A DNA stretch of 64,000 bases from Mariniflexile fucanivorans (lineage in GTDB: Bacteria; Bacteroidota; Bacteroidia; Flavobacteriales; Flavobacteriaceae): contig NZ_SLUP01000007.1 in assembly GCF_004341235.1 (NCBI RefSeq), positions 124,001 through 188,000 of the forward strand, read 5' to 3'. Position 1 is the first letter of the stretch; each line of letters opens with the position of its first letter. The translations under genes and the position numbers were made by a program. Of this stretch, positions 17,086 to 31,650 are shown in pieces. The notes beneath the pieces are model-generated. The model was not told the DNA's origin. It saw nothing but the letters and a program-made list of their open reading frames with translations, and did no database searches.

Positions 17086-17670
17086 GTGCATTTGGAACAA
17101 GAGGACTTTATAAAAGATTTAAAAAACGGTAAACAATCTGCTTACAGCAAATTGATTGACGATTTTCAGCAAAAAGTATTTGCTACATGCATCTCGTTTG
17201 TGCCAAATAGAGAAGATGCCGAAGATATTGCGCAAGATGTTTTTGTTGAAGTTTTTAATTCTATTAATAAATTTAAGGGGAATTCAAAGCTTTCTACTTG
17301 GATTTATCGAATAACGACGAACAAATGTTTAGAGTTTATTAGAAAGAAAAACACTAAAAAACGCTTTGGTTTTTTACAATCTATAATGGGAAATGAGGTG
17401 CCTTTTGATAAAACTAGTTATTTTACCGAAATGAATCATCCAGGTATTTTATTAGAAAATAAAGAAAAGAGCGAAACTTTGTTTAAAGCAATTAATGAAT
17501 TGCCAGAAGCCCAAAAAGTAGTTTTTACACTTTGTAAAGTAGATGGTAAAAGTTACGAAGAGGTGAGCGAGATTACAGACAAAAGTGTTTCATCGATAGA
17601 GTCGTTAATGTTTCGCGCTAAGAAAAACTTACAGGATTTGTTAGGGGATTTTTATAAAAATGATGTGTAA
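17086..17670 (+). CDS. ECF-type RNA polymerase sigma factor
   Basis: Sigma-70 family, extracytoplasmic-function group: region 2 DAEDIAQDVFVEVFNSINKF followed by STWIYRITTNKCLEFIRKK, and region 4 with helix-turn-helix LPEAQKVVFTLCKVDGKSYEEVSEIT near the C-terminus. 194 aa, normal size. Start is GTG at 17086 (MHLEQEDF), as no ATG fits. Followed by a short membrane protein and a periplasmic Spy/CnrX-like sensor, the layout of Cnr-type metal-sensing sigma modules. Four strong copies of an unusual promoter-like motif surround this gene's neighbours, and this factor is the best candidate to read them (inference). Confidence 0.93.
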   Translation: MHLEQEDFIKDLKNGKQSAYSKLIDDFQQKVFATCISFVPNREDAEDIAQDVFVEVFNSINKFKGNSKLSTWIYRITTNKCLEFIRKKNTKKRFGFLQSIMGNEVPFDKTSYFTEMNHPGILLENKEKSETLFKAINELPEAQKVVFTLCKVDGKSYEEVSEITDKSVSSIESLMFRAKKNLQDLLGDFYKNDV

Positions 17671-17672
17671 CG

Positions 17673-17699
17673 CAAGTTTTTAAAAGTTATTGCATCTAA
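17673..17699 (+). promoter_or_regulatory. Candidate ECF promoter P1 (CAAGTTTTT-N10-GCATCTAA)
   Basis: CAAGTTTTT at 17673-17681 and GCATCTAA at 17692-17699, 10 bp apart, starting 3 bp after the sigma-factor stop and 21 bp before the next ATG. It would give the membrane protein and sensor genes a promoter of their own. Four copies in this window share exactly the same spacing. Confidence 0.7.
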
Positions 17700-17720
17700 A
17701 ATAGTATAACACAAAAAAAA

Positions 17721-18038
17721 ATGGACACAAATAACAATATTCAAAACAAAATAGATGATGCTTTCTCAGCTATTGACGCTATTGAAAACGTGAATGTATC
17801 TCCCTTTTTTAAGGATAAAACCATGCAACGTTTGTTTGCGGAAAAGGAAGAAGTTGTAACGATCTGGAATTGGTTTACACCCAAATTGCAATTGGCAACA
17901 TTGGCTTGTTTTATTGTATTAAATGTTTTGGCTTTTAAGCAATACAATTCGAATAAATATATTGCGAATGTTAACGAGTTTGCAGAAACTTACGGGCTTG
18001 CTTCAAGTGCTAACGAATCGTTATTGAATTTAAAATAG
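17721..18038 (+). CDS. Short single-pass membrane protein, candidate anti-sigma factor
   Basis: A 105-aa protein with a soluble N-terminal part of about 50 residues, one membrane segment (LQLATLACFIVLNVLAF, about residues 54-70) and a short outer tail. No zinc-binding anti-sigma motif is seen. Place and topology match the short anti-sigma proteins (CnrY-like) between an ECF sigma factor and its periplasmic sensor. Its TAG stop directly abuts the ATG of the next gene. Function is inferred from context. Confidence 0.65.
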   Translation: MDTNNNIQNKIDDAFSAIDAIENVNVSPFFKDKTMQRLFAEKEEVVTIWNWFTPKLQLATLACFIVLNVLAFKQYNSNKYIANVNEFAETYGLASSANESLLNLK

Positions 18039-18662
18039 ATGAGCATGAAAAAAAATTTAATCCTATATATATTACTGGTGTTTTTGGTGGTGGTGAATGG
18101 TTTTTTTCTATATAATTATTTATTTCCTACCGTTTCGAAAATTAATAACATTGGAAAAGTAAATGGAAGTCCAGAGACATTTATAGTAAAAGCTTTAGGG
18201 TTTGATGATGAACAGATGAAGCAATTTGAAGAAATAAACAATGGACATCATGAAAGTATGGTTAAATCTTCGGAAGAAACAAAAGTTCTTAAAGATCAAT
18301 TAGGTAGGTTGATAATTAAAGAAAATGTTTCGGATACTGAAATTGATTCTATTTTGAATTTATTAGGAAAAAAGGAAGTGGCGCACGAAAAGTTGATGTT
18401 TAACCATTTAAGAGCGATTCGCAATATATGTACAGAAAATCAAAAAGAACGTTTTGAGCAAATAATACGTGATGCATTACGCGGAGGTCCTAAAGGTATG
18501 GGACAAGGAGAGGGCGGACCGCCTCCGCCAGAGGGTATGCCAGAAGGCGGACTTCCACCAGATAACATGCGAGAAGGCGGGCCTCCACAAGGTGGTATGC
18601 GAGAAGGAAGACCGCGACCAGATGGTATGCCAGAAGGTGAACCTGCTCCAAGGCCAGAATAA
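18039..18662 (+). CDS. Membrane-anchored Spy/CnrX-like periplasmic sensor with Gly/Pro-rich tail
   Basis: N-terminal membrane anchor (LILYILLVFLVVVNGFFLYNYLF) followed by a helical periplasmic domain of the Spy/CpxP/CnrX type (about residues 45-145). Possible metal ligands are the NGHHESM segment and an HxxxM pair in AHEKLMFNH; CnrX uses His and Met residues in this way, but equivalence is inference. The last 50 residues are a tandem decapeptide repeat rich in Pro, Gly, Glu and Met. Translationally coupled to the preceding membrane protein. Probable role: sense metal or envelope stress and control the sigma factor. Confidence 0.75.
   Translation: MSMKKNLILYILLVFLVVVNGFFLYNYLFPTVSKINNIGKVNGSPETFIVKALGFDDEQMKQFEEINNGHHESMVKSSEETKVLKDQLGRLIIKENVSDTEIDSILNLLGKKEVAHEKLMFNHLRAIRNICTENQKERFEQIIRDALRGGPKGMGQGEGGPPPPEGMPEGGLPPDNMREGGPPQGGMREGRPRPDGMPEGEPAPRPE
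18537..18650 (+). repeat. 30-bp tandem repeat encoding a Pro/Gly/Glu decapeptide
   Basis: ATG codons recur at 18537, 18567, 18597 and 18627, exactly 30 bp apart, each followed by a Glu-Gly-rich decapeptide (MPEGGLPPDN, MREGGPPQGG, MREGRPRPDG, then a diverging copy). It is GC-rich compared with its surroundings and keeps several frames open on both strands, which gives spurious ORFs. Copy number may vary between strains. Confidence 0.85.
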
Positions 18663-18679
18663 ATTATAAAACACATATA

Positions 18680-18714
18680 AATCCTATTAAGCACCTTGTT
18701 TAATAGGATTTTTT
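18680..18714 (+). terminator. Terminator after the Spy-like sensor gene
   Basis: AATCCTATTA (18680-18689) pairs perfectly with 18701-18710 and is followed by a T run. It isolates the sigma operon from the EF-hand gene, which has its own candidate ECF promoter. Confidence 0.8.
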
Positions 18715-18758
18715 AATTTCTGAAAAAGTTGTGTAAAGTTAAAATAAAGTTAACAGCA

Positions 18759-18785
18759 CAAGTTTTTTTAATGGTTAACATCTAA
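18759..18785 (+). promoter_or_regulatory. Candidate ECF promoter P2
   Basis: CAAGTTTTT (18759-18767), 10-bp spacer, ACATCTAA (18778-18785), 27 bp before the EF-hand gene start. Same spacing as P1, P3 and P4. Confidence 0.7.
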
Positions 18786-18812
18786 AAAATATAATAATAT
18801 CAAATATAAATT

Positions 18813-19319
18813 ATGAAACATAATAGATTAAAAGCAGGAATGTTATTCGTATTCATGGCAGGTTTATTTTCAATGGGTGCAAATGCGCAATCCGCTAATG
18901 AAAATCAAAATAAACAACAGCCTCCAAGTACCGAGGAATTAATAAAAATGATGGATTCCAATAAAGATGGAAAATTATCATCAAAAGAAGTAAAGGGTCC
19001 TTTAAAAGATGATTTCGCTAAAATTGACACCAATAAAGATGGTTTTTTAACGAAGGCAGAATTGGAAAAAGCCCCAAAACCTAATGGTAAAAGCGGAAAA
19101 CAACAAGAGGAGCAACAAGTCACGTCGCAGAAAAAAGAGCCAAGTATTGATGAACTGATTAAAATGATGGATTCAAATGAAGACGGGAAATTAAGCAAAG
19201 AAGAAGTAAAAGGACCTTTGGAAAAAGACTTTGCAAAAATTGACACCAATAAAGATGGGTTTTTAACGAAAGCAGAACTAGAAAAAGCGCCAAAACAAAA
19301 TAAAGGCGAGAAGAAATAA
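18813..19319 (+). CDS. Secreted EF-hand calcium-binding protein
   Basis: Signal peptide (MKHNRLKAGMLFVFMAGLFS, cleavage likely after NAQ) and four EF-hand-like loops in two near-identical pairs: DSNKDGKLSSKE and DTNKDGFLTKAE, then DSNEDGKLSKEE and DTNKDGFLTKAE. The two halves, joined by a Gln/Lys-rich linker, come from an internal duplication also visible in the DNA. 168 aa. Monocistronic between a terminator and a hairpin, with candidate promoter P2 upstream. Likely a periplasmic or surface calcium (or other metal) buffer or sensor. Partner unknown. Confidence 0.88.
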   Translation: MKHNRLKAGMLFVFMAGLFSMGANAQSANENQNKQQPPSTEELIKMMDSNKDGKLSSKEVKGPLKDDFAKIDTNKDGFLTKAELEKAPKPNGKSGKQQEEQQVTSQKKEPSIDELIKMMDSNEDGKLSKEEVKGPLEKDFAKIDTNKDGFLTKAELEKAPKQNKGEKK

Positions 19320-19360
19320 ACACGTTTAGTTATAAATAATTTGATTAGTCGCTTATTTTA

Positions 19361-19394
19361 AAAGGTTTCACAAGAATTTTGTGAAGCTTTTTTT
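19361..19394 (+). terminator. Terminator after the EF-hand gene
   Basis: TTCACAA (19367-19373) pairs with TTGTGAA (19379-19385), extended by weaker pairs and followed by a run of eight to nine T. Lies about 45 bp after the stop. The remaining 19395-19643 holds candidate promoter P3 and no gene. Confidence 0.75.
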
Positions 19395-19546
19395 TTGAAA
19401 TAATGTTAGATACAAACAAGCTTAAACTAATGCCTTCTAAAAATAGATTTAGTTAAATTGATGTATAATTCAAAAAAAGTTTTCTGTGCAAATACTTGAA
19501 AAATAACGATTTAAAATTAACAAATACATAATGTTAAATTAACACA

Positions 19547-19573
19547 CAAGTTTTTAAAACTAATAGCATCTAA
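19547..19573 (+). promoter_or_regulatory. Candidate ECF promoter P3
   Basis: CAAGTTTTT (19547-19555), 10-bp spacer, GCATCTAA (19566-19573). It is 70 bp before the VTC gene and would drive the VTC-DUF4956-DUF2490-CotH operon. Confidence 0.7.
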
Positions 19574-19643
19574 TATATTAAACAGGAAAGCTGCGCAGTT
19601 TAAAATGTTTGATAAATAGGATTTAATTAATACGGATAAACTT

Positions 19644-20402
19644 ATGTTGGAAATATCAAGTAATCTAAAAAGGGAAATACAACATCTGGCACCCATTTCT
19701 TTGGAAGAGATGGATGATGTGAAATTGATGAAACGTACAGACACCAAATTTGTAATACATGAAAAAGATTTGGCTCCCATTTTAAAGCGCATTCAAGATC
19801 AATATAGAGTTGTTGAAATAAAAGGTAATAGAATTACAACTTACTCCTCGTTGTATTTTGATACGCCTGAGCAAAAATTTTATAAAGATCATCACAACGG
19901 GAAAAATAATAGAACAAAAATTAGAATTCGCAAGTATGTTGAATCTGATATCTGTTTTCTTGAAATTAAACAAAAGGATGGCAAAGGGAATACAACTAAA
20001 ACGAGAACCTCTATTCCTGATTTTGAATCAGATTTATTAAAAAAATCCATAGAGTTTATTCAAAAAACCACCCAAGAAACTTATGACTTAGAACCTGTAA
20101 TTTGGAATCAATTTAACAGAATTACATTGGTTAATAAAGCTGCCAAAGAACGATTAACGATAGACTTAAATCTCACTTTTAAAAAAAATGGAAGCTTTAA
20201 AACTTATGAAAATTTAGTTATAATCGAATTAAAACAAGAACGCTATAATAGAAGTTCGCCCATAGTACAAGAGTTAAAATCCAAACAAATAAATCCTTAT
20301 AGTATTAGTAAATATTGCATAGGCATGTTAAGTATTTATGATAACTTAAAATACAATTGCTTTAAAGAAAAAATAATAAAAATTAATAAAATAACCGCTT
20401 AA
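19644..20402 (+). CDS. VTC-domain protein (polyphosphate polymerase-like)
   Basis: A 252-aa soluble protein of the VTC family, whose eukaryotic members polymerise polyphosphate inside a tunnel lined by basic residues. Visible features are LMKRTDTKFVIHEKDL, YSSLYFDTP, KIRIRKYVESDICFLEIKQK and a late VIIELKQER, the alternating Arg/Lys/Glu strands typical of the tunnel (CYTH-like) fold. Bacterial members lie beside CotH and DUF4956 genes, as here, and their product is not established. First gene of a four-gene operon with gaps of 6-12 bp. Confidence 0.85.
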   Translation: MLEISSNLKREIQHLAPISLEEMDDVKLMKRTDTKFVIHEKDLAPILKRIQDQYRVVEIKGNRITTYSSLYFDTPEQKFYKDHHNGKNNRTKIRIRKYVESDICFLEIKQKDGKGNTTKTRTSIPDFESDLLKKSIEFIQKTTQETYDLEPVIWNQFNRITLVNKAAKERLTIDLNLTFKKNGSFKTYENLVIIELKQERYNRSSPIVQELKSKQINPYSISKYCIGMLSIYDNLKYNCFKEKIIKINKITA

Positions 20403-20414
20403 AAAACATAACCT

Positions 20415-21032
20415 ATGGAATTTTTAGATATCCCAATCTTCAGTGACGATTTTTTTAAAATGATGTTCAGACTGTTCATCAATCTTACATTTTTAACCAT
20501 AATAATCCGTTTTATTTATTATCCGTTTTCAAAACGAAAAGACTTCGTTTTCACCTATTACCTTATTAGTCTTATCGTGTTTTTTCTGTGTTTTGCGCTT
20601 AAAAAATTTGAAATGGATCTTGGAATGGCACTTGGTTTATTTGCCATTTTTGGTATTCTTCGTTATAGAACCGATGCCATTTCTCAAAAAGAAGTTACCT
20701 ATTTATTTGTTGTAATTGGTATTTCTGTAATAAACTCGTTGGCCAATAAAAAAATGAGCTACGCCGAAATTTTAGGATTTAACACAATCATCGTACTTGT
20801 TCTTGTTCTTATCGAAAGATATTGGTCTTTAAAACAAGAGGAATCCAAATCTATTATTTACGAAAATATTGAAAACATTAAGCCAGAAAACTATGCCATA
20901 TTAAAAAGTGATTTGGAAAGCAGAACCGGTTTAATTATAAACCGAATAACCATTGGTGAAGTTAATTTTTTAAGAGATACAGCAAAGGTTACCATTTTTT
21001 ATTTTAACGGCAATCAAGAAATTTCAAATTAA
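20415..21032 (+). CDS. DUF4956 membrane protein
   Basis: A 205-aa protein with about four hydrophobic segments in its first 140 residues (LFINLTFLTIIIRFIYY, VFTYYLISLIVFFLCF, a Gly-rich GMALGLFAIFGILRYRTD, then TIIVLVLVLIERY) and a cytoplasmic C-terminal tail. LFAIFGILRYRT is the conserved DUF4956 signature as I remember it. Constant partner of VTC and CotH genes, function unknown. 12 bp after VTC. Confidence 0.82.
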   Translation: MEFLDIPIFSDDFFKMMFRLFINLTFLTIIIRFIYYPFSKRKDFVFTYYLISLIVFFLCFALKKFEMDLGMALGLFAIFGILRYRTDAISQKEVTYLFVVIGISVINSLANKKMSYAEILGFNTIIVLVLVLIERYWSLKQEESKSIIYENIENIKPENYAILKSDLESRTGLIINRITIGEVNFLRDTAKVTIFYFNGNQEISN

Positions 21033-21041
21033 TAAGTGATT

Positions 21042-21755
21042 ATGAAGAAGGGTAGAAACTATAAAAATTTGTGTTTATTCATGTTGTTGTTAAGTATTTT
21101 ATTTTCAAATACCATGTATGCGCAAACAGAAGATTCTAAAAATTTAAATTTATGGAGTTCTGTTGAAATTGAATATAAACTTAACGATAAATGGAGTTTT
21201 GAATTATCACAGCAACTTAGGTTAAAAGAAGATATCTCGTTAGTTGATGAGTATTTTACAGAACTGCAAACAGAGTATTCCGTTAATAAAAATTTCAGTC
21301 TTGCGGGTGGTCTAAGGTTCATAAGGCAAAACGACACGGATGGTAATATTCAAGGTTATGAAAACCATTTAAGGTTTCAGTTTGACGCTAAATACAAGCA
21401 CAAAATCAACGATTTTAAATTGGATTACCGCTTAAGATATCAAAATAAAAACGATTTATCAGTGTCAAGCGACGAAGGCGATTATGCAAATCAGCACATC
21501 CGTTTAAAAGCAGGTATAGAATACAATATTAAAAACTGGAAACTCGATCCTCAATTTTCTGCCGAAATTTATAATCATTTCGAAAAAGGAGAAGCTGGCG
21601 GTTTCGATAAATATCGATTAACATTTGGAACCGATTACGATATGAAAGAATATGGCAAAATAGGCTTATACTATCGCATTGAAAGAGATTTAAATGTTGA
21701 TTTACCAGAAACTACAAACATAATCGGATTAACCTACAAATACACTTTTAAATAA
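21042..21755 (+). CDS. DUF2490 outer-membrane beta-barrel protein
   Basis: Signal peptide ending MYAQ, then alternating short strands rich in aromatic residues (LWSSVEIEYKLNDKWSFELSQ, LAGGLRFIRQ, KLDYRLRYQNKND) and a final strand ending in Phe-Lys, typical of an outer-membrane barrel. I use the ATG at 21042 rather than the GTG at 21036, as it gives a clean signal peptide. About 237 aa. Probably a small pore or structural partner of the CotH/VTC operon. Confidence 0.78.
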   Translation: MKKGRNYKNLCLFMLLLSILFSNTMYAQTEDSKNLNLWSSVEIEYKLNDKWSFELSQQLRLKEDISLVDEYFTELQTEYSVNKNFSLAGGLRFIRQNDTDGNIQGYENHLRFQFDAKYKHKINDFKLDYRLRYQNKNDLSVSSDEGDYANQHIRLKAGIEYNIKNWKLDPQFSAEIYNHFEKGEAGGFDKYRLTFGTDYDMKEYGKIGLYYRIERDLNVDLPETTNIIGLTYKYTFK

Positions 21756-21761
21756 ATAATT

Positions 21762-23171
21762 ATGAAAAAAACAATTTTAAAACTATCAATACTATTAAGC
21801 ATCGTGTTTTTAAATGCTTATGTAATTATAGGATGCTCAACGAAAGAGTCCATAAACGAAGAAAATGTAGAGGAAGAAGTCGTAATAGAAGATACCGATT
21901 TTGTAGCAACCGATTGGACTACCGAAACGCATAGTAAAGATGCAGACCCAAATTTTGATGAGGTATTTGATGATACGGCCGTAAAACGCTTTGATTTTGT
22001 TATTTCTAGCGAAAATTGGGCAGCTATGTTGGCAAATATGACCTCTCTATATGGTACTTTTGGTAGATCAAGCGGTAACAGCTTTTCAGATGATGATCCT
22101 ATTTTTGTGCCTGCCGAGGTTTATTATAACGGAATGCAATGGTACAAAGTTGGAGTTCGTTTTAAAGGAAATTCCAGTTTAGCAAGCGCTTGGGGAAGTG
22201 GCATTTTAAAATTGGCATTCAAAATAGATTTTGATGAGTATGAAGATGAATATCCGCAAATTGAAAATCAACGTTTCTATGGTTTCAAAAAATTCAGTCT
22301 TAAAAACAATTATCTTGATAGTTCGATGTTAAGAGAAAAAGTAGCCGCAGAAGTATTTAAAAATGCTGGTTTAGCCATGTCACATACTGCTTTTTATACT
22401 CTGTATGTCGATCATGGTAATGGCCCACAATATTTTGGTTTATACACATTGGTAGAAGAAGTTGATGATACGGTGATTGATACACAATTTTCGAGTGGAG
22501 ACGGAAATCTGTATAAACCAGAAGACTATGGAGCAAGTTTTGCTTCAGGAACATTTAATGAAGACGGGTTTGAGAAAAAAACAAATGAAGATGAAGCCGA
22601 TTGGACCGATATTCAAGCCTTATTTAGTGCTCTACATGCTTCCACAAGAACTTCAGATCCTGCTACTTGGAGAGCAGGCGTAGATGCTGTTTTAGATACC
22701 GATGTGTTTCTTAAATATTTAGCAGTTAATACGGTTATTCAAAATTGGGATACCTATGGTAGAATGGAGCATAATTATTATTTATATAATAACCCAGCTA
22801 CAAATAAATTAACTTGGATTCCTTGGGATAATAATGAATCTTTACAAACAGGTAAAATGGGAGGGTCTTTACCCTTAAATTTTTCAGGCTTAAGTTCATC
22901 AAGTTGGCCATTAATAGGGTATTTGTATAGCGATTCAGTTTATAAAGCAAAATACGATGCCTATGTAAAAGAAACCATAGAAGGTCCTTTTGCAACATCA
23001 TACATTCAAGGCGTTTATGATACTTATGCCACTTTAGTATCACCTTATGCAACCACAGAAGTTTCAGGATATACATTTTTAAGCAGTAGCAGCTCATTTT
23101 CATCTGCCGTTTCAACCTTAAAAACACATGCCACTAGCAGAGCAACTGCTGTAAGTAGTTATTTAAAATAA
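21762..23171 (+). CDS. CotH-family protein kinase-like lipoprotein
   Basis: Lipoprotein (lipobox VIIGC, Cys about residue 25) with a CotH domain: VGVRFKGNSSL, FKKFSLKNNYLDSSMLREKVA, YFGLYTLVEEVDD, LYKPED and, later, NHNYYLYNNPATNKLTWIPWD-type residues near 330-350 that carry the metal-binding Asp. CotH proteins are atypical kinases that phosphorylate surface proteins (spore coat proteins in Bacillus). Here it would act in the periplasm or on the surface. 469 aa. Last gene of the VTC operon, 6 bp after DUF2490. Substrates may be the neighbouring lipoproteins (inference). Confidence 0.88.
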   Translation: MKKTILKLSILLSIVFLNAYVIIGCSTKESINEENVEEEVVIEDTDFVATDWTTETHSKDADPNFDEVFDDTAVKRFDFVISSENWAAMLANMTSLYGTFGRSSGNSFSDDDPIFVPAEVYYNGMQWYKVGVRFKGNSSLASAWGSGILKLAFKIDFDEYEDEYPQIENQRFYGFKKFSLKNNYLDSSMLREKVAAEVFKNAGLAMSHTAFYTLYVDHGNGPQYFGLYTLVEEVDDTVIDTQFSSGDGNLYKPEDYGASFASGTFNEDGFEKKTNEDEADWTDIQALFSALHASTRTSDPATWRAGVDAVLDTDVFLKYLAVNTVIQNWDTYGRMEHNYYLYNNPATNKLTWIPWDNNESLQTGKMGGSLPLNFSGLSSSSWPLIGYLYSDSVYKAKYDAYVKETIEGPFATSYIQGVYDTYATLVSPYATTEVSGYTFLSSSSSFSSAVSTLKTHATSRATAVSSYLK

Positions 23172-23221
23172 ATTGATTGATTTAGTTGATAGCTATTAGT
23201 ATAAAAACTAATAGTACTATT

Positions 23222-23252
23222 AAGACTCTAGGTTTCCTAGGGTCTTTTTTTA
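23222..23252 (+). terminator. Terminator after cotH-like gene
   Basis: AAGACTCTAGG (23222-23232) pairs with 23236-23246 (one wobble) and is followed by a T run. Confidence 0.78.
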
Positions 23253-23276
23253 TGTTTTATTTAACAATAAATCGCA

Positions 23277-23303
23277 CAATAAATTAAAAATAGTCACATC
23301 TAA
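23277..23303 (+). promoter_or_regulatory. Weak candidate ECF promoter P5
   Basis: The -10 half ACATCTAA (23296-23303) is intact; at exactly the expected distance lies CAATAAATT instead of CAAGTTTTT, so only CAA and the AT-rich tail are kept. It is 98 bp before the DUF1566 gene. Listed because position and spacing fit the other four copies. Confidence 0.4.
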
Positions 23304-23401
23304 ACATTCGTATCATAACTAATATAAAAGGTTAAAAACTAATAGAACAAAAAGCCAAAGATGGCTAAACTAAAGCCTAAATAAATTCAAAACAATTAAA
23401 T

Positions 23402-24610
23402 ATGAAACGATTTTCAAATTCAAAAAAAATAGCAATTTTAGTTTTTGGATTATTTTTAACAATTACGGCATTTGTTTCTTGTAGCAATGATGATAATACC
23501 GATATAGTAGATGATAGTGATTCAGAGACAACAAATACAGAGTTAACCATAAATAATTATGCGCAAATTGCAACGGGACAAGTAACCTTATATGATGATG
23601 AAGGTAATGTGCTTTCAGGATTAAGCGAAGGAGATGCTTTTTATGGTCAAGATGCCAATTACTTAAATGGTGCAACTATGTCTTATACAGATAATGGAGA
23701 TGGTACGGTGACAGATAATAATTCTGGATTAATGTGGCAACAAATACCTTCATCAAGCGATTTTACTTGGCAGGAAGCAGTAGATTATTGTGAAAGCTTG
23801 GAACTTGATGGCTATACCGATTGGCGTATGCCTAGTTGCAAGGAATTGTATTCTATTAGTAATTTTGGATCTGGTTGGCCTTATTTAAATATTACTTATT
23901 TCAATTTGGCTAGTGGTCAAGTTTCCAAAGACGAACAATATTGGTCAAGCAATTACTATGTAGGTGTTACGGTTGAAGGAGGTTCAAATGCAGCAATGGG
24001 TGTAAATCATGTAACAGGACATATAAAAGCTTACGCTGCAGCGTCTTCTGGTCCTGTTGGAGGAAAATATGTAAGAGCCGTGCGTGGTGGTGATTATGGC
24101 ATTAATGAATTTGTAAACAATGGCGATGGTACCATAACTGACAATGCTACAGGTTTAATGTGGACACAAGCCGATAATAGCGAAGGTTTGGATTGGGAAC
24201 ATGCACTAGCTTATGCCGAAAACAGAACCTTTGCAGGTCACTCTGATTGGCGTTTACCAAATGTGAAAGAGCTTCAAGGCATTGTTGATTATAATTATTC
24301 ACCTAGCGCAACAGATGCTTCAAAAGTTGGCCCAGCGATTGATCCATTATTTTCATGTACACCAATAATTAACGAAGCAGGAAATGACGATTACGGGTAT
24401 TATTGGACAAGCACATCAGCAAATTTTACAAGTGGCGAACCCTATTATTACGCTTGGTATGTAGCTTTTGGAATGGCTGTGGATGGTAATGGGGATGATT
24501 TTCATGGAGCAGGAGCTGTTCGTTTTGATACTAAAGTAGAAGGAGGCCCATTAGGTGAAGGGGGCGAACGTTATTACAATTATGTACGATTAGTAAGAGA
24601 TATAAATTAA
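23402..24610 (+). CDS. Lipoprotein with two DUF1566 (Lcl C-terminal) domains
   Basis: Signal peptide with lipobox FVSC (Cys about residue 26), then two copies of the DUF1566/Lcl domain: DNGDGTVTDNNSGLMWQQ...DWRMPSCKEL and NNGDGTITDNATGLMWTQ...DWRLPNVKEL, ending in NYVRLVRDIN. 402 aa. DUF1566 domains are related to C-type-lectin-like surface modules. Starts a two-gene operon with the beta-helix protein (13 bp gap). A fragment of a related C-terminus lies 1.65 kb downstream. Confidence 0.85.
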   Translation: MKRFSNSKKIAILVFGLFLTITAFVSCSNDDNTDIVDDSDSETTNTELTINNYAQIATGQVTLYDDEGNVLSGLSEGDAFYGQDANYLNGATMSYTDNGDGTVTDNNSGLMWQQIPSSSDFTWQEAVDYCESLELDGYTDWRMPSCKELYSISNFGSGWPYLNITYFNLASGQVSKDEQYWSSNYYVGVTVEGGSNAAMGVNHVTGHIKAYAAASSGPVGGKYVRAVRGGDYGINEFVNNGDGTITDNATGLMWTQADNSEGLDWEHALAYAENRTFAGHSDWRLPNVKELQGIVDYNYSPSATDASKVGPAIDPLFSCTPIINEAGNDDYGYYWTSTSANFTSGEPYYYAWYVAFGMAVDGNGDDFHGAGAVRFDTKVEGGPLGEGGERYYNYVRLVRDIN

Positions 24611-24623
24611 AAAAACAAAACAA

Positions 24624-26228
24624 ATGAAGACAATTAAAAAAAGTTTAAACCTATTTTTTGTAGCATTAATATGTAGTGCTTCACTATTAACATTCAATGC
24701 GTGTAGTAAAGATGATGATAGCGACGAAATTATATCTAATTCAGAAGATATTGCAATAACAGGCACAAACATATCAGGTACAGCTGAAGGTGATACCGAT
24801 AATACAGGATACGACGAAGACGATTTAGTAGAGAACGCTACTTTTGAAAACACCATACAAATTGTATTTTCCAATACGTCGGCAACAATTACAAACCCTG
24901 TTCCTAATGATGTGGTAATTACACAAAACGGAGCAGATGTAACCATTAATTCCACTATTTCTGCGGTTGCTTATGAAGTTTCGGGAACAACAGCCGATGG
25001 TATGTTGAAAATCTATAGCGATAAAAAATTCAAATTAGCGTTAAATGATTTAAGTATCACAAATGCTGATGGTCCTGCTATAAATATCCAATCCTCAAAA
25101 ACAAGTTTTGTGGTATTGGAAGGTACAAACAACTTGACCGACGCATCAACCTACAGTAATATCCCTGATGATGAAGATGCCAAAGCAGCATTTTTTAGTG
25201 AAGGACAATTGGTATTCAGCGGTTCAGGTGCTCTTAACGTTGCTGGACTCTACAAACACGGCATAGCAAGTGATGATTATGTGAGGGTAATTAGTGGAAC
25301 AATTACGATTACCGAAGCAGCATCCGATGGCATTCACACCAACGATTATATTATTGTAGATGGAGGTACAATCAACTTAACAGTAGATAGCGATGGTTTA
25401 GATTGTGAGGAAGGCTATATTATTATCAATGATGGAACATTTATTATAAATGCTGCTGATGATGGCATTGCTGCCTCATACGATATTGATGATGAGGAAG
25501 AACCAGATGATACCATTACGCCTTATGTAACCATAAATGGTGGCGATTTTACTATAAATACATCTGAAGGTGAAGGTATTGAAGCAAAAGGTGTTATGAC
25601 CATTAATGACGGAAGAATAAATATCAATTCTTATGATGATGGCCTTAATTCTGGTGGAAATTTATATATCAATGGAGGAGATATCTATGTGTACACTACA
25701 CTCAATGATGCCATTGACAGTAATACAGGCATTACAGTTACAGGCGGAACCACTATTGCCATAGCAGTTAGGGTTGATGAGCCAGATGGTAGTTTTGATT
25801 GCGATGGTAATATATTTAAAATTACAGGAGGAACAATATTGGGATTAGGATTGAATACCTCATTTCCAACAGAAAGTGTGAGTACTCAAAATTCAGTGAT
25901 TTTTGATGGAATAAATGCAAATCAGATATTAAATATTCAATCAGAAGATGGTACTGAAGCCCTTACTTATGAAGTGCCAAATAGGGTAACAACCATAATT
26001 TATTCCAATGCTAAATTAGAAATAGGTCAAACATATAAAATCTATACAGGAGGAACCGTAAGCAATGGAACCGAAGTTAACGGATTATACACTTCTGGAA
26101 CCTATAGCGGAGGAACTGATTCTGGTGATTCATTTACCATAAACAGCACAGTTACACAAATTGGAGGAGAAATGGGGCCAACCGGAGAGCCTGGTACTAG
26201 CGGTCCTGGAGGTCCTGGCGGAAATTAA
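24624..26228 (+). CDS. Carbohydrate-binding beta-helix lipoprotein (DUF4353/Cthe_2159-like)
   Basis: Lipobox TFNAC (Cys about residue 27), an acidic N-terminal spacer, then a long series of parallel beta-helix turns with repeating Gly-Thr/Asn pattern (SGTITITEAASDGIHTNDYI, GGTINLTVDSDGLDCEEGYI, GGDFTINTSEGEGIEAKGVM), rich in Asp as expected for calcium sites. The end is a Gly/Pro-rich tail (GPTGEPGTSGPGGPGGN). 534 aa. The Cthe_2159 family binds acidic sugars and cellulose. Surface location inferred. Confidence 0.82.
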   Translation: MKTIKKSLNLFFVALICSASLLTFNACSKDDDSDEIISNSEDIAITGTNISGTAEGDTDNTGYDEDDLVENATFENTIQIVFSNTSATITNPVPNDVVITQNGADVTINSTISAVAYEVSGTTADGMLKIYSDKKFKLALNDLSITNADGPAINIQSSKTSFVVLEGTNNLTDASTYSNIPDDEDAKAAFFSEGQLVFSGSGALNVAGLYKHGIASDDYVRVISGTITITEAASDGIHTNDYIIVDGGTINLTVDSDGLDCEEGYIIINDGTFIINAADDGIAASYDIDDEEEPDDTITPYVTINGGDFTINTSEGEGIEAKGVMTINDGRININSYDDGLNSGGNLYINGGDIYVYTTLNDAIDSNTGITVTGGTTIAIAVRVDEPDGSFDCDGNIFKITGGTILGLGLNTSFPTESVSTQNSVIFDGINANQILNIQSEDGTEALTYEVPNRVTTIIYSNAKLEIGQTYKIYTGGTVSNGTEVNGLYTSGTYSGGTDSGDSFTINSTVTQIGGEMGPTGEPGTSGPGGPGGN

Positions 26229-26264
26229 TTACTTGAAGACATTAAAAATTGAGTAAATAAATGA

Positions 26265-26390
26265 ATGAGAAAGCTGTTTTTGAAGGCCTATAGAAGCGAC
26301 ACGAAAACGGGCAATGTAAGCGATTATCCGCAAGGGCGAGGACCACCAGGCGATGTTATTAGAATAAACAATTATGTTAGATTAGTTTAA
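26265..26390 (+). pseudogene. Remnant of a DUF1566 gene (C-terminal 41 codons)
   Basis: A frame from ATG 26265 to TAA 26388-26390 encodes 41 residues including RSDTKTGNVSDYPQGRG and RINNYVRLV, the typical C-terminal end of DUF1566 proteins, where the neighbouring intact lipoprotein ends NYVRLVRDIN. No N-terminal part precedes it, so it appears to be the leftover of a deleted or recombined paralogue. It follows the beta-helix gene by 36 bp. Confidence 0.75.
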
Positions 26391-26437
26391 AATATATTAT
26401 AAAATTTATAGTAATTATTTGATTAGTAGTTAGTTAT

Positions 26438-26471
26438 TAAAAGCTTCATAGCGATTGTTATGAAGCTTTTA
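26438..26471 (+). terminator. Terminator before the YHYH gene
   Basis: A 13-bp perfect stem, TAAAAGCTTCATA (26438-26450) with 26459-26471, 8-nt loop. It closes the DUF1566/beta-helix operon and its remnant. Confidence 0.78.
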
Positions 26472-26495
26472 TTTATATTAAATAAAAATAGAGCG

Positions 26496-26522
26496 CAAGT
26501 TTTTATTTATAAATGCATCTAA
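26496..26522 (+). promoter_or_regulatory. Candidate ECF promoter P4
   Basis: CAAGTTTTT (26496-26504), 10-bp spacer, GCATCTAA (26515-26522), 26 bp before the YHYH gene. Same geometry as P1-P3, just after a terminator. Confidence 0.7.
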
Positions 26523-26548
26523 AAAATTAAACACTAAAAAATAAATTT

Positions 26549-27292
26549 ATGAAAACCCCATTTAAAGTATCAATGCTATTAAGTTTAATAGCCATCGTTT
26601 TTATGGCTTGCTCAAGCGATAGTTCTAGTGTCGAAGAAGACACAACGACTACAACTGGCGAACTACATGCTGCATATGCAGCCTTTAATACAGACGCCGT
26701 TACCATTTTTTTAGAAGGTGATAAAGTAGTTATAGAAACGACAGGATTACCAAACCATAAATCTGTTTATTGGGGAAGTGCTAGTAGTCTTTATTTAGCA
26801 GAACCAGATGTATCAACAACTCCAAGCATCATGTCCAGTAACAACAATGCGACTACTATGACGGTTGATGCGACTCCAAATTTATCAGGAAGTACGGTGG
26901 CTACAGCATTAAATACAATTGGTATTGCGGTAAGTGGTGCCTCTATATTTAATGATTCCGAAGGAAACGGTCCATTAAGTAGTGCGGCAGCTAGTTTAGA
27001 TTGGACGGGAGCTCACATTGGACCAGGGGTTTATCATTATCATTTAGAACCTAAAGCGTTTACCGATGATGATTCAAATTTAGTTGGAATATTAAAAGAC
27101 GGGGTGTTTCTTTACGGCAGAAAATGTGACTCTACAGGAACTTATCCAGCTGATTTAGATGCTTCTGGAGGGCATACATCTGCTACTCAATATACCGCTG
27201 GAGAAGCAGAATATCATTATCACATAATAAATACATTGTATTCTACAACAGGGTCTTACATTGCATTTGCGGGTCCATATAGAGGTTATTAA
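26549..27292 (+). CDS. YHYH-motif lipoprotein
   Basis: Signal peptide with lipobox FMAC (Cys about residue 21), a Thr/Glu-rich spacer, then the YHYH domain with two copies of the name-giving motif (GVYHYHLEP and EYHYHIINT) and CDSTGTYPADLDASGGHTS between them. 247 aa. YHYH proteins are exported. The His pairs suggest metal binding, which would suit the Sco1 gene two positions downstream (inference). Confidence 0.86.
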   Translation: MKTPFKVSMLLSLIAIVFMACSSDSSSVEEDTTTTTGELHAAYAAFNTDAVTIFLEGDKVVIETTGLPNHKSVYWGSASSLYLAEPDVSTTPSIMSSNNNATTMTVDATPNLSGSTVATALNTIGIAVSGASIFNDSEGNGPLSSAAASLDWTGAHIGPGVYHYHLEPKAFTDDDSNLVGILKDGVFLYGRKCDSTGTYPADLDASGGHTSATQYTAGEAEYHYHIINTLYSTTGSYIAFAGPYRGY

Positions 27293-27305: not shown

Positions 27306-27923
27306 ATGATAAAACCATTTTTAATAGTACTATTCGCTTTAATTTTTTCTGGTTGCCATCAACAACCAGAAAAAATGGCTCATGCTGAAAACACAAGAAT
27401 CAGTCAAGAAACTCCTAACGTTATAGATAATGTTTTGGTAGCAAAAAATGCCTTGTACCTAAATCAGAAACAAGGTACTTGGTATTATAATAAAAAGCCA
27501 TTTAACGGTTTTTCGGTAAAATTTTATCCAAATGGGGTTTTAGAAGAGCAATTGGGTTTTTATAAAGGAAAAAGAGAAGGTGTTGCTAAAAGGTGGTCTG
27601 ACAATGGGGTGCTTCGTGTAGAATCTTTTTATAACCAGAATAAATTGGTAGGTATTTATAAAAGTTGGTGGGAAAACGGATTGGTGGCTGAAGAATCTAC
27701 TTATGTAAACGGTTTTAAACAGGGTATAGAAAGGCAATGGCACGATAATGGAACCCTTTCAAAATTGCGACATATGGTTGATGGTGAAGAAAGTGGCATG
27801 CAGCAAGCTTGGTTAAAAAACGGTACTTTATATATTAATTATGAAGCTAAAAACGGACGCATTTTTGGTCTGTTGAAGTCTAACTTATGTTATCAATTAG
27901 AGAATGAAGTCGTTATTAAATAA
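27306..27923 (+). CDS. MORN-like repeat lipoprotein (YwqK-type)
   Basis: I start at ATG 27306 (MIKPFLIVLFALIFSGC), which gives a clean lipobox; the longer frame from 27261 overlaps the YHYH gene. Then five to six MORN-variant repeats of about 22 residues (GFSVKFYPNGVLEEQLGFYKG, VAKRWSDNGVLRVESFY, IYKSWWENGLVAEESTYVNG, IERQWHDNGTLSKLRHMVDG, MQQAWLKNGTLYINYEAKNG). Often annotated as YwqK-family antitoxin, but the lipoprotein signal here argues for a surface or periplasmic role. About 205 aa. 13 bp after the YHYH stop. Confidence 0.8.
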   Translation: MIKPFLIVLFALIFSGCHQQPEKMAHAENTRISQETPNVIDNVLVAKNALYLNQKQGTWYYNKKPFNGFSVKFYPNGVLEEQLGFYKGKREGVAKRWSDNGVLRVESFYNQNKLVGIYKSWWENGLVAEESTYVNGFKQGIERQWHDNGTLSKLRHMVDGEESGMQQAWLKNGTLYINYEAKNGRIFGLLKSNLCYQLENEVVIK

Positions 27924-27930
27924 TTTCAGA

Positions 27931-28599
27931 ATGAAGTATGTAAGTATTATTGTATTGATCATTTTTGCAAGTTGTAAAAATGAAGTCAAAAAAGTTCCCG
28001 AAATAGTCGAAGAAACCAGTAGAGTTGAGTATTTACCGTACTACAACGATGAATCTTTTACACCACATTGGATTACTCCCAATAGCAAAGAAGAAAAAGC
28101 ATTTCATAAAATCCCAGACTTTAAACTCACCAATCAGCTAGGAGAAACGGTAACACAAAAAACCTTTGACAATAAAATTTACATCACCGATTTCTTTTTT
28201 GCAAGTTGCCCAGGTATTTGTCCGCAAATGACGAGCAGTATGTTTAAATTACAAGAAGAATTTATAAACGATGCAGATATTTTGTTTTTGTCCCACTCGG
28301 TAACACCAACGCAAGACTCTGTGCTAGTTCTTAAACAGTATGCTAAAATGAATGGCGTTATTGACCATAAATGGCATTTAGTTACGGGTGATAAAAACAT
28401 GATTTACAATTTAGGAAGAAATCAATATTTTGTTGAAAACGATTTAGGAGAACCTAAAGATATCAACGATTTTTTACATTCTGAAAACTTTTTGCTCATT
28501 GACAAAAACAAGCATATTAGAGGAATTTATAATGGATTAAAATTAGCATCCATGGCGCAATTAGTAGTCGATATAAAAGCACTTAAAAAGGAAGGATAG
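27931..28599 (+). CDS. SCO1/SenC-family copper-binding lipoprotein
   Basis: Thioredoxin-fold protein that delivers copper to cytochrome c oxidase or acts as a thiol reductase. Start taken at ATG 27931 (MKYVSIIVLIIFASC, lipobox Cys 15). The Sco CxxxC site is in FFFASCPGICPQM, followed by SHSVTPTQDSVLVLKQYA and the conserved His before the last strand in DFLHSENFLLID. 222 aa. It lies 7 bp after the MORN gene in the P4 operon, the clearest sign that this cluster handles a metal. Confidence 0.88.
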   Translation: MKYVSIIVLIIFASCKNEVKKVPEIVEETSRVEYLPYYNDESFTPHWITPNSKEEKAFHKIPDFKLTNQLGETVTQKTFDNKIYITDFFFASCPGICPQMTSSMFKLQEEFINDADILFLSHSVTPTQDSVLVLKQYAKMNGVIDHKWHLVTGDKNMIYNLGRNQYFVENDLGEPKDINDFLHSENFLLIDKNKHIRGIYNGLKLASMAQLVVDIKALKKEG

Positions 28600-28643: not shown

Positions 28644-28674
28644 AAAGCTTCAGGTTAGTTCATGAAGCTTTTCT
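28644..28674 (+). terminator. Hairpin terminator after the Sco1 gene
   Basis: AAAGCTTCA (28644-28652) pairs with TGAAGCTTT (28663-28671) and runs into T's. The in-frame ATG at 28662 of the next frame lies inside this hairpin, which supports the later start chosen for that gene. Confidence 0.65.
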
Positions 28675-28697
28675 ACTTTTATGGAAATTTCTACAAC

Positions 28698-29750
28698 ATG
28701 AAACAGTTTTGCCTTTTTTTAGTTAGTATAATAGTGTTGAATTCCTGTAAAAAGAACGAATCAATTAATACAAGAAATATGACTATAGTAGAAGTTGAGA
28801 CACTACTACAAGATTCCATTTTAAGTATTCGCGCCATTGAAATACTTAATGATGGAAGTTTAGCTTTTGCTGCCAATAATGGTGCCTTCGGACTTTATAA
28901 TCCCATAAAACAAAGTTGGATGACTTCTAAACAAGAATTAGATAGCCTAAACCTTCATTTTAGAGCCGTAGCACATACTTCATCAGATTTTTTTATGCTG
29001 AGTATAGAAAGTCCTGCGTGTTTATTTAAAACGGGAGATACTGGCAAAATGGAATTGGTTTATAGAGAAAATCATCCCAAAGCTTTTTACGATGCGATGA
29101 CGTTTTGGAATGATAAAGAAGGCATAGCAATTGGAGATCCAACAGAAAATTGTATGAGCATTATTGTTACCAGAGATGGAGGAAATACCTGGAATAAAAT
29201 ATCTTGTAGCATTTTGCCAAAATTAAATGAAGGTGAAGCAGCATTTGCTGCCAGTAACTCAAACATAGCCGTTGTGGGCGATAAAACTTGGGTTGCAACA
29301 GGAGGGAAAGCAGGTAGAGTGTTGTATTCGCCAGATAAAGGAAAAAGCTGGGAAATATATAATACGCCTATTATTCAAGGATTGGAAACTACGGGTATCT
29401 ATTCCATCGATTTTTATGATGAATTAAACGGTTTTGCTATTGGTGGCGATTATACAACACCTGATAATAATACAGCTAATAAAATAAAGACGATTGATGG
29501 TGGAAAAACTTGGAAATTAGTGGAAGAAAACCAAAGCCCTAGTTACAGAAGTTGTGTGAAATACATTCCAAATAGAGGCGGAAAGGAACTTGTTGCTATC
29601 GGTTTTAAAGGACTAGATTTCAGTAGCGATTCTGGAAATTCATGGGAACACTTAAGCGATGAAAGTTTTTATACCATTCGATTTCTAAACGATAGTACGG
29701 CTTATGCTGGGGGTTCAGGACGTATTTCTAAACTTATTTTTAGAGAATAA
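28698..29750 (+). CDS. BNR/YCF48-like beta-propeller lipoprotein
   Basis: Start at ATG 28698 (MKQFCLFLVSIIVLNSC, lipobox Cys 17). The body carries sialidase-type Asp-box turns spaced along the chain: TRDGGNTWNKI, SPDKGKSWEIY, TIDGGKTWKLV, SSDSGNSWEHL. This indicates a six- or seven-bladed propeller of the BNR/VPS10/YCF48 kind. About 350 aa. Such proteins are often called oxidoreductases in this group without support. Ends immediately before a nested palindromic repeat. Confidence 0.82.
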   Translation: MKQFCLFLVSIIVLNSCKKNESINTRNMTIVEVETLLQDSILSIRAIEILNDGSLAFAANNGAFGLYNPIKQSWMTSKQELDSLNLHFRAVAHTSSDFFMLSIESPACLFKTGDTGKMELVYRENHPKAFYDAMTFWNDKEGIAIGDPTENCMSIIVTRDGGNTWNKISCSILPKLNEGEAAFAASNSNIAVVGDKTWVATGGKAGRVLYSPDKGKSWEIYNTPIIQGLETTGIYSIDFYDELNGFAIGGDYTTPDNNTANKIKTIDGGKTWKLVEENQSPSYRSCVKYIPNRGGKELVAIGFKGLDFSSDSGNSWEHLSDESFYTIRFLNDSTAYAGGSGRISKLIFRE

Positions 29751-29891
29751 AAAAAGAGACTGTATAAAAAGTGTTATTTTAAGTCATTGCGAGAAACGAA
29801 GCAATCTTTAGGTTTTTGAAAATCAACAAACAGATTACTTCACTGCGTTCGTAATGACGACTTATTTTGACTTTTTAGACAGTCTCTTTTT
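29751..29891. repeat. Nested palindromic repeat element at a convergent gene junction
   Basis: Outer arms 29751-29771 (beginning AAAAAGAGACTGTATAAA) and 29869-29891 are near-perfect inverted repeats. An inner pair starts GTCATTGCGAG (from 29783) and returns as the reverse of GTCATTACGAA (ending 29858). It directly follows the BNR stop and ends 22 bp before the stop of the opposing gene, so it probably acts as the bidirectional terminator. The outer arm recurs at 49.78 kb and the inner unit recurs inside purL. Confidence 0.75.
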
Positions 29892-29912: not shown

Positions 29913-30338
29913 TTAATTACGACCTCTTTTTTTATACTCGTCAAACATTTTTCTTTTAAAGTCATCTTCAATTTTATGCAAAAGAATAATTTTTTTTGCT
30001 GAAATCACTTTCGATAAGTTGTTGAAAAATTCGTTTTCAAGTGCTTGCCGTTGGTTGTCTTTCAAACGGCTTTCTTTTAAAATTTGTTTCGCTTGTTCTT
30101 CGCTTATAGTTTCAAAATCTATTTTTTTTCTCGCTTCGTAAGCTTCTGACTTTAATTTGGAGTTTTCTTCCTCAAAAGTATTGTAAATGGGCCAGAATTT
30201 TTGAGCTTCCTTTTCGCTTAAATTTAATTTTTCGGTTATAAACGCAATTTTTAGTGTTTTAATCTTATCTCTATTGGACTGTGCCATAGTGATAAGCGAA
30301 AAACTTAATATAAATAAAATGCTTGTAAGTTTTTTCAT
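29913..30338 (-). CDS. Periplasmic Spy/CpxP-like protein
   Basis: Start at ATG 30338 (MKKLTSILFILSFSLITMAQ, signal peptide); the longer frame to 30392 would run into the preceding gene. The mature part is helical: KLNLSEKEAQKFWPIYNTFEEEN, then a long Lys/Glu-rich helix to DDFKRKMFDEYKKRG. 141 aa. Third gene of a sigma / membrane protein / Spy-like set, the same layout as at 17-18.7 kb but without the HxxxM pair or repeat tail. Likely the stress-sensing arm of that sigma factor. Confidence 0.75.
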   Translation of the reverse strand: MKKLTSILFILSFSLITMAQSNRDKIKTLKIAFITEKLNLSEKEAQKFWPIYNTFEEENSKLKSEAYEARKKIDFETISEEQAKQILKESRLKDNQRQALENEFFNNLSKVISAKKIILLHKIEDDFKRKMFDEYKKRGRN

Positions 30339-30348
30339 TTTTTTTGCT

Positions 30349-30849
30349 TTATTTTGAAATAATATCTTCAATTTCCAAATTGTCAAATACATAATTTTCT
30401 AAAGTTTCAGAAGAATATCCATCATGAATTAATTGAACATCCATCAAATCTTCTTTGGTAAAAAGAGATGCGAATTCGTCAGTTTCTAAATCTTCATCTA
30501 TAATATAGTTTTCAATGCTTGCTATTTCAATAGTCTCTATAGTAATATGTTCAGTTTTATTGAAGAAAATATTAATAATTAAAATGAAACTGGCAGCTAT
30601 GGCAGCAGCATAGGATGCTTTTTGCCATGTAATAAGTTTAATTACTTTGGTGTCTTTTTGAGGTTGTACCGCATTAATTATTTTATCTTCTAACGAATTG
30701 AAATAATGGTCTGGTACTTTATAACCAGGTTTAGAAATTGTTTCTTGAAGTTTTACTTCACTTAAAACAATATCTTCGAGAGATTCAAAGTAATCCTTCG
30801 GAACTTTAAATCCAGCCTCTTTAATATTATGTAATTTATTTGTGTTCAT
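30349..30849 (-). CDS. Single-pass membrane protein, candidate anti-sigma factor
   Basis: 166 aa. The cytoplasmic N-terminal part has an internal duplication (AGFKVPKDYFESLEDIVLSEV and PGYKVPDHYFNSLEDKIINAV, about 35 residues apart). One membrane segment (SYAAAIAASFILIINIFF) and an acidic outer tail follow. No zinc motif. Position directly after an ECF sigma gene and before a Spy-like gene suggests an anti-sigma role. Ends 10 bp before the Spy-like start. Confidence 0.7.
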   Translation of the reverse strand: MNTNKLHNIKEAGFKVPKDYFESLEDIVLSEVKLQETISKPGYKVPDHYFNSLEDKIINAVQPQKDTKVIKLITWQKASYAAAIAASFILIINIFFNKTEHITIETIEIASIENYIIDEDLETDEFASLFTKEDLMDVQLIHDGYSSETLENYVFDNLEIEDIISK

Positions 30850-30882
30850 CTTATTGATAAGACTTTATTTTTTGTAAAAGGT

Positions 30883-31425: not shown

Positions 31426-31650
31426 AAATATACTTTACAAGTTAGACTCCTAAATTTACAAAAAGTTTAAAATGAATTTTATTTAAATGTTTAAAAACCT
31501 GATAAACAATAAATTATAAATTAAAATATCGATTAAGTGTATAATAACAACGATTAAATACGTTTTTTATTGTAGGCTATTTATTTTTGTTTTAAATTTG
31601 CTTCAGAAACCTACTTATGTCGTTAGTCTTCCCCAAGTCTAACAGGATAA

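Follow-up and report, generated by a model that had tools for sequence, protein, structure and literature searches.

An ECF sigma factor and a bipartite promoter-like motif occur together in Flavobacteriaceae, ahead of EF-hand, YHYH and CotH genes

We analysed a stretch of 64,000 nucleotides from Mariniflexile fucanivorans (contig NZ_SLUP01000007.1 of assembly GCF_004341235.1, positions 124,001 to 188,000; hereafter the window), in which a 27-base motif is repeated ahead of several transcription units that lie beside a gene for an extracytoplasmic function (ECF) sigma factor at 17086. Very probably this motif is the promoter of that sigma factor, which would be held by a 105-residue protein and freed by a sensor, as in the CnrYXH system. 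The reading, made from sequence, draws its main weight from the distribution of the two elements: among 397 genomes of the family, all 39 with the exact motif are among the 48 that encode the sigma factor, and the exact motif is found in none of the 349 others (Fisher p ~1e-45).

Results

A motif of two boxes and one spacing

A pattern scan of the window gave exact motif matches at 17673, 18759, 19547 and 26496, all on the + strand, as a first-pass annotation of this DNA had listed them. The core, CAAGTTTT-N12-CATCTAA, gave the same four matches only and none when the window was shuffled 100 times. In 51 loci of relatives that carry the sigma gene (the sigma loci), 125 instances yielded the consensus CR-CAAGTTTT(T)-N10-RCATCTAA-A. 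The form of the motif in the first-pass annotation stands, although it had overlooked conserved flanking bases: the preceding two bases are C (in 93%) and then always G or A, and the following base is A in 93%. The spacing of 12 bases from CAAGTTTT to CATCTAA occurs in 100 copies in these loci, and each of 14 other spacings (5 to 19) in 0 or 1 copy; the two boxes are conserved and the 10-base spacer is variable.

The weaker copy that had been reported at 23277 is also present. Scored with a weight matrix whose training set was the sites of 63 sigma or motif loci that carry one mismatch or none, the window excluded, it is the fifth-best place in the window, with 10.95 bits against 32.9 to 40.2 for the four good sites, and it is plausibly a real site with a degraded -35 half. 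The next start codon lies 21, 27, 70, 98 and 26 base pairs (bp) from the motifs at 17673, 18759, 19547, 23277 and 26496, respectively, so that the open reading frame (ORF) coordinates bear out the range given earlier. The claim that terminators precede the sites fared less evenly, with stems ahead of 18759, 23277 and 26496 but a scan that was weak overall (9 stems against 7.4 in shuffles).

A scan of the whole host genome (4,735,576 bases, 29 contigs), which the first-pass annotation had proposed, found four exact copies, all inside the cluster. The single match with one mismatch (C4:191292) lies upstream of a second CotH gene, whose 770-residue product has a lamin-tail domain as well as a tail for type IX secretion. 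Allowing up to two mismatches raises the number of matches to 17, but the reversed pattern then gives 8, so that the distant weaker copies cannot singly be told from chance; the extended motif with up to three mismatches gave 16 against 7. One weak site, C10:97430, is notable only through an exact core site in Polaribacter sp. Hel1_85 that precedes a protein of similar look by eye.

The motif and the sigma factor occur in the same genomes

The product of the gene at 17086 matches sigma-70 regions 2 and 4, and not region 3, and scores above the cut-off of TIGR02937, which places it among the ECF (group IV) sigma-70 factors. Among proteins of solved structure, E. coli sigma-E and SigW are closest to it in sequence, and CnrH was also matched. 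Five residues of its recognition helix (S167, S170, E172, S173 and R177) are identical in all 51 usable sequences, which fits the expectation for an unchanged promoter; one sigma and one sensor sequence among the 52 rows of each alignment were extraction fragments.

Separate searches of the panel of 397 genomes gave 75 exact copies of the motif, against 3 of the reversed pattern, and, at E <= 1e-45, an orthologue of the sigma factor in 48 genomes. This co-occurrence (39/39 against 0/349) supports the earlier proposal that the sigma factor at 17086 reads the sites. Neither of two grounds for doubt named with that proposal was encountered: the motif is not scattered at random, as its excess over the reversed pattern shows, and in the sigma loci it precedes the orthologous genes. 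With one mismatch allowed, 47 of the 48 sigma genomes have at least one match, 155 copies in all where the reversed pattern gives 27, and 12 match among 48 of the 349 sigma-less genomes that were searched in the same way, with 15 copies against 15 reversed and so no excess. Outside the family, the exact motif was found in none of 246 genomes of the same order (296 were drawn; the other 50 belonged to the family, 3 of them with matches).

G370, the sole sigma genome that lacks a match at this level, carries a two-mismatch site of 30.5 bits upstream of its YHYH gene (locus L129). The idea that its sigma gene is a pseudogene was dropped, as the L129 frame has its full 192 residues and the listed internal stop is most simply the gene end. 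In another locus, L047, a place with two mismatches by plain count has a best matrix score of only 0.6 bits. Eleven of the 75 exact copies, in 10 genomes, are distal to the sigma gene or on other contigs, at distances of 1.80 Mb (G335) and 0.39 Mb (G168) in single-contig genomes. Behind these 11 sites lie genes for YHYH proteins (4), type IX-secreted adhesins (2) and one each of CotH, VTC, di-haem peroxidase, PAP2 and GLPGLI proteins.

Neighbourhoods with and without the sigma factor

Loci that share genes with the cluster served as controls. A relative of the VTC protein is encoded in 31 named loci, and the genomes of 30 of these were searched for the sigma factor and the motif: sigma factor and exact motifs occur together in four of them, and both are missing from the other 26. 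L027, a VTC locus whose genome lies outside the 30, has both at the locus. The best site per locus scores at least 27.6 in the 63 sigma or motif loci, a figure that is partly circular since these loci trained the matrix (the window sites and L129 being exceptions), and at most 12.2 in the 26 sigma-less VTC loci. Around 14 YHYH loci from 11 of the 48 sigma-less genomes (1.5 kb on each side), no site exceeded 8.4 bits. Linkage may also be loosened with the motif kept: Polaribacter sp. Hel1_85 has its sigma gene about 60 kb from its VTC, CotH and YHYH genes, with motifs still before those genes, and in G229 a VTC operon with an exact motif lies on a different contig from the sigma gene.

Target families

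The 51 sigma loci contain EF-hand genes in 39 cases, YHYH, MORN and SCO genes in 41 each, CotH in 21, VTC in 7, and the DUF1566 and beta-helix genes in none, each locus spanning up to about 20 kb, with further copies possible elsewhere in those genomes. The earlier picture of a regulon centred on a CotH kinase and a VTC polymerase is not borne out by these counts. The conserved targets are the EF-hand and YHYH-MORN-SCO genes; CotH is common and VTC occasional, and the DUF1566/Cthe_2159 unit with the weak fifth site looks like a local addition.

We then assigned the first gene after each motif for 160 sites in 80 loci (89 exact, 71 with one mismatch). The 152 assigned sites precede the anti-sigma/sensor pair (49), YHYH (42), EF-hand (17), sigma (17), VTC (6), CotH (6) and CCP_MauG di-haem peroxidase (4) genes, among others, and 8 were left unassigned; YHYH is thus the most frequent target after the anti-sigma/sensor pair. 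The motif stands before that pair in 49 loci, the window included, and also before the sigma gene in 17 of them. The sigma gene of the window has no motif ahead of it; the first motif sits between this gene and the pair. The panel used for the comparison of targets held singletons drawn from the same sites (sulfatase, PAP2, GLPGLI, PGGGG, type IX secretion adhesin and CxGKCHL proteins), and therefore only recurrent families count. A protein in which YHYH and EF-hand domains are fused (L104:6590-7687, - strand) ties two of the target families together, and its cluster also holds a motif-led di-haem peroxidase gene.

For the window's own proteins, CotH matches the solved spore coat protein H (5jd9), a sequence search of the PDB gave no solved relative of the VTC protein, and modelling of the YHYH protein failed (mean pLDDT 33.4).

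Several genes near these sites deserve mention in their own right. A small membrane-type protein follows distal motif-led YHYH genes in L118 (9055-9681), L116 and L079; one such protein was tested and proved DUF6702-like, below the cut-off. Small proteins with a CxGKCHLxKE stretch, possible metal ligands, lie behind motifs with one mismatch in two genomes (L158, 7851-8183, and L168). A BNR/YCF48-like gene (28662-29750) after the YHYH operon is present in 32 of the 51 sigma loci and is once led by an exact motif (L098).

The putative anti-sigma factor and the sensor

Genes for the sigma factor, the 105-residue protein and the sensor stand together in all 51 loci. The 105-residue protein is a probable anti-sigma factor by its position, its size and a membrane segment seen by eye, ahead of which a PFFK stretch is conserved; it has no Pfam match, and a PDB sequence search gave two matches at E 0.7-0.9, which are not meaningful. 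The sensor matches PF07813, the CpxP/Spy family, barely above the cut-off (24.9 bits against 24.3).

In the sensor alignment of 52 rows, one of them a fragment, a C-x3-Q stretch has its Cys in 49 rows and its Gln in 51; His fills position 70 in 46 rows, Met position 74 in 40 and Cys position 131 in 49. The same C-x3-Q is invariant in the 29 sequences of a narrower alignment (A3), made up of the window and 28 of the 51 loci, 22 others having yielded no sensor start and one a fragment. In CnrX the metal ligands are His, His, Glu, His and Met. The structural model of the sensor is confident only over residues 51-140 (block means 82-88, overall mean 63). Searched with Foldseek, it gave NccX and CnrX in the first seven rows (probability 1.00, target TM up to 0.82, E 0.04-0.08), followed by Spy and CpxP, all at weak E-values; this suggests a CnrX/Spy-like fold.

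A second ECF system beside the cluster

A second module of an ECF sigma factor, a small protein and an LTXXQ-like protein (match sub-threshold) occupies 29913-31470 on the - strand. Its sigma gene (30883-31425) is present in 347 of the 397 genomes. This sigma factor has its own promoter, TTAAACTTT-N14-GTCTAA, exact at 31442-31470, 16 bp before the gene, and its words recur upstream of the second sigma gene in 19-20 of 30 sequences. Genome-wide the second promoter shows no excess, with 6 matches (one exact) against 7 reversed at up to one mismatch. A copy with two mismatches lies at 30858-30886, before the small protein gene; shuffles give about one such match per window. In the second promoter AAC begins 21 nucleotides before TCTAA, the same distance as from AAG to TCTAA in the first motif. 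Thus, the two neighbouring ECF systems share one geometry and differ in letters.

Proposed mechanism and alternatives

We infer that RNA polymerase carrying the sigma factor would bind CRCAAGTTTT as its -35 element and RCATCTAAA as its -10 element, and start transcription of separate units, namely the EF-hand gene, the CotH gene with VTC, DUF4956 and DUF2490, and the YHYH-MORN-SCO genes, all predicted to encode exported proteins. The second CotH gene elsewhere in the genome would probably be driven as well, and the DUF1566/Cthe_2159 pair perhaps weakly. By analogy with CnrYXH, the 105-residue protein may hold the sigma factor inactive at the membrane until the periplasmic sensor meets its signal and the sigma factor is released. 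As the first motif lies 3' of the sigma gene and 5' of the anti-sigma gene, active sigma factor would raise its own inhibitor and sensor, a negative feedback.

Another way to view the motif is as an operator at housekeeping promoters, bound by a DNA-binding regulator of ordinary type and linked to the sigma gene indirectly. The 28 of 152 assigned sites that lie 70-328 bp from the start codon used would suit an operator, the largest of these values arising from passing over the short anti-sigma gene; the remaining 124 lie within 58 bp of it. The motif, moreover, is asymmetric, bipartite and strictly spaced, with the geometry of the neighbouring ECF promoter, and it co-occurs with one ECF factor, which makes the operator highly improbable. 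The second sigma factor might instead read the motif, being an ECF factor with an adjacent small protein and LTXXQ-like protein and often linked to the cluster in relatives. However, at least 308 of the 347 genomes that encode it lack the exact motif, its gene has a distinct promoter of its own, and G362 has the motif and the first sigma factor with no row among the second-sigma genomes; we consider this reading extremely improbable. Finally, since 64 of the 75 exact copies are found close to the sigma gene within a group of linked genes, the copies might be hitchhiking remnants of a cluster duplication or of a repeat element rather than functional promoters. The chance of this is close to negligible, given that both boxes are kept while the 10-base spacer varies, that copies stand before non-homologous genes on other contigs, and that there are none before the same genes in sigma-less genomes.

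Promoter recognition by the sigma factor at 17086 thus remains our preferred reading, and several points weigh against it or its parts. The anti-sigma role is assigned from the size and position of the protein and from a membrane segment recognised by eye. No Foldseek match for the sensor reaches E 0.001 (the best is 0.042), and in VIA-align unrelated and designed helical bundles score level with CnrX (Z ~10). No RND efflux family is found among the genes at 152 of the 160 sites (first gene per motif only) or among 19 scanned proteins. The G370 locus has a degraded place ahead of its anti-sigma pair, the best other score there being 11.3, and in each genome no more than 8 candidates were scored in the sigma search.

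As to the signal, the same regulon could respond to misfolded envelope protein, sensed as by the chaperones Spy and CpxP. The sensor belongs to PF07813, and its sequence profile finds Spy (E 3e-6) and not CnrX, which counts at once for this signal and against the CnrX analogy; the NccX and CnrX rows at the head of the Foldseek results, and SCO and di-haem peroxidases among the targets, speak the other way. We put the chances of a protein-damage signal somewhat below even. Our slight leaning is towards a metal ion, because of the sensor's structural neighbours together with SCO, di-haem peroxidase and His-containing YHYH targets.

A far-reaching extension of the sigma-promoter reading, which we regard as very unlikely, is an inducible modification of the cell surface under one sensor. 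The VTC-DUF4956 proteins would make polyphosphate and pass it across the membrane, CotH proteins, drawing on it or supplied by it in some other way, would phosphorylate the EF-hand and YHYH surface proteins induced alongside, and SCO and di-haem peroxidases would mature the metal sites of these. If true, this would be a bacterial counterpart of the secretory-pathway kinases that act on calcium-binding proteins.

The regulon would give the YHYH, DUF4956, bacterial CotH and VTC, and secreted EF-hand families, all little understood, a shared regulator, hence a shared condition of use, and make them testable together. It would also define a promoter code for a flavobacterial ECF factor whose neighbour, a second ECF factor, uses the same geometry with other letters in each box; the pair would be a natural example of related sigma factors with promoters insulated from one another.

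Features of the window

Coordinates of the cluster are collected below. Two further observations by eye lie outside it: a 502-residue ORF with a reverse-transcriptase-like YSDD motif (53833-55341, - strand), and a palindrome-like intergenic stretch with TCATTGCGAGAAACGAAGCAATC that resembles a dispersed repeat (29757-29890).

Table 1. Genes and motif copies of the candidate regulon, in window coordinates
Feature	Coordinates	Strand	Evidence
ECF sigma factor, 194 residues, proposed motif reader	17086..17670	+	Pfam Sigma70_r2 and r4_2
Promoter motif 1, CR-CAAGTTTTT-N10-RCATCTAA-A, before anti-sigma and sensor genes	17671..17700	+	exact; weight-matrix score 40.0
105-residue protein, one membrane segment (by eye), probable anti-sigma factor, CnrY position	17721..18038	+	in 51/51 sigma loci
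Membrane-anchored (by eye) periplasmic sensor, LTXXQ/Spy family, Pro/Gly/Met-rich tail	18039..18662	+	PF07813
Promoter motif 2, before EF-hand gene	18757..18786	+	exact; score 33.2; terminator-like stem 18679-18711 precedes
Secreted-type protein with four EF-hand stretches	18813..19319	+	PF13202
Promoter motif 3, before VTC-DUF4956-DUF2490-CotH	19545..19574	+	core exact, last flank base deviates; score 32.9
VTC-domain protein (polyphosphate polymerase family), predicted	19644..20402	+	PF09359, 126.1 bits, E 2.1e-36
DUF4956 protein	20415..21032	+	PF16316
DUF2490 outer-membrane-barrel-like protein	21036..21755	+	PF10677
CotH kinase-family protein (predicted), lipoprotein-like start (by eye)	21762..23171	+	PF08757, 244.5 bits, E 2.6e-72
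Motif 5, weak, degraded	23275..23304	+	score 10.95; 1 of 804,358 background positions as good
Protein with Lcl_C (DUF1566) domains	23402..24610	+	PF07603; 0/51 sigma loci of relatives
Cthe_2159 beta-helix-family protein	24624..26228	+	PF14262; 0/51 sigma loci of relatives
Promoter motif 4, before YHYH-MORN-SCO	26494..26523	+	exact; score 40.2; terminator-like stem 26438-26471 precedes
YHYH-family protein	26549..27292	+	PF14240
MORN-repeat protein	27306..27923	+	PF07661; first ATG 27306, mechanical ORF from 27261
SCO1/SenC protein	27904..28599	+	PF02630

Relation to known systems

CnrYXH is the cobalt-nickel ECF switch of Cupriavidus metallidurans. The system described here resembles it in that an ECF factor, a tiny membrane protein and a predicted CnrX/Spy-like sensor are encoded together. 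It differs in gene order (here sigma, anti-sigma, sensor), in a sensor whose sequence is nearer to Spy, in its host phylum, Bacteroidota, and in its targets, which are EF-hand, YHYH, SCO and CotH genes rather than RND efflux genes among those assigned. The promoters of sigma-E (RpoE) have AAC in the -35 element and GTCTAA in the -10 element. The motif shares with them AA[C/G]TT and TCTAA elements 21 nucleotides apart, start to start, but has AAG in place of AAC and ATCTAA in place of GTCTAA. The second ECF system of the window has the same make-up and an equal promoter geometry, with the LTXXQ-like match below threshold, and is distinguished by its other promoter letters and its far wider distribution (347 of 397 genomes, against 48 for the first).

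The kind of system, an ECF factor with a periplasmic sensor of the LTXXQ/Spy-type family, is known. Our literature search, covering mostly open-access texts, with supplements that may hold tables of ECF promoters outside its scope, found no description of such a regulon; judged by the literature searched, the promoter code is apparently new, as are the set of targets and the distribution.

Within the same family, the transcription-start map of Flavobacterium psychrophilum, as far as its account was available to us, describes one ECF motif, SM6, and allows that further ECF-controlled starts may remain undiscovered (PMC9723704). SM6 is likewise a promoter class of an alternative sigma factor; unlike the window motif, it is given a CGT box and targets in type IX secretion in that account (PMC9723704). 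The association of CotH with a polyphosphate polymerase and DUF4956 is already known from Gram-positive bacteria, where the three form an accessory set beside pel clusters (PMC7112168). The window cluster likewise brings together CotH, a VTC-type polymerase and DUF4956, and differs from that set in its ECF regulon, which does not figure in the portion of the account we consulted, and in the Gram-positive hosts described there (PMC7112168).

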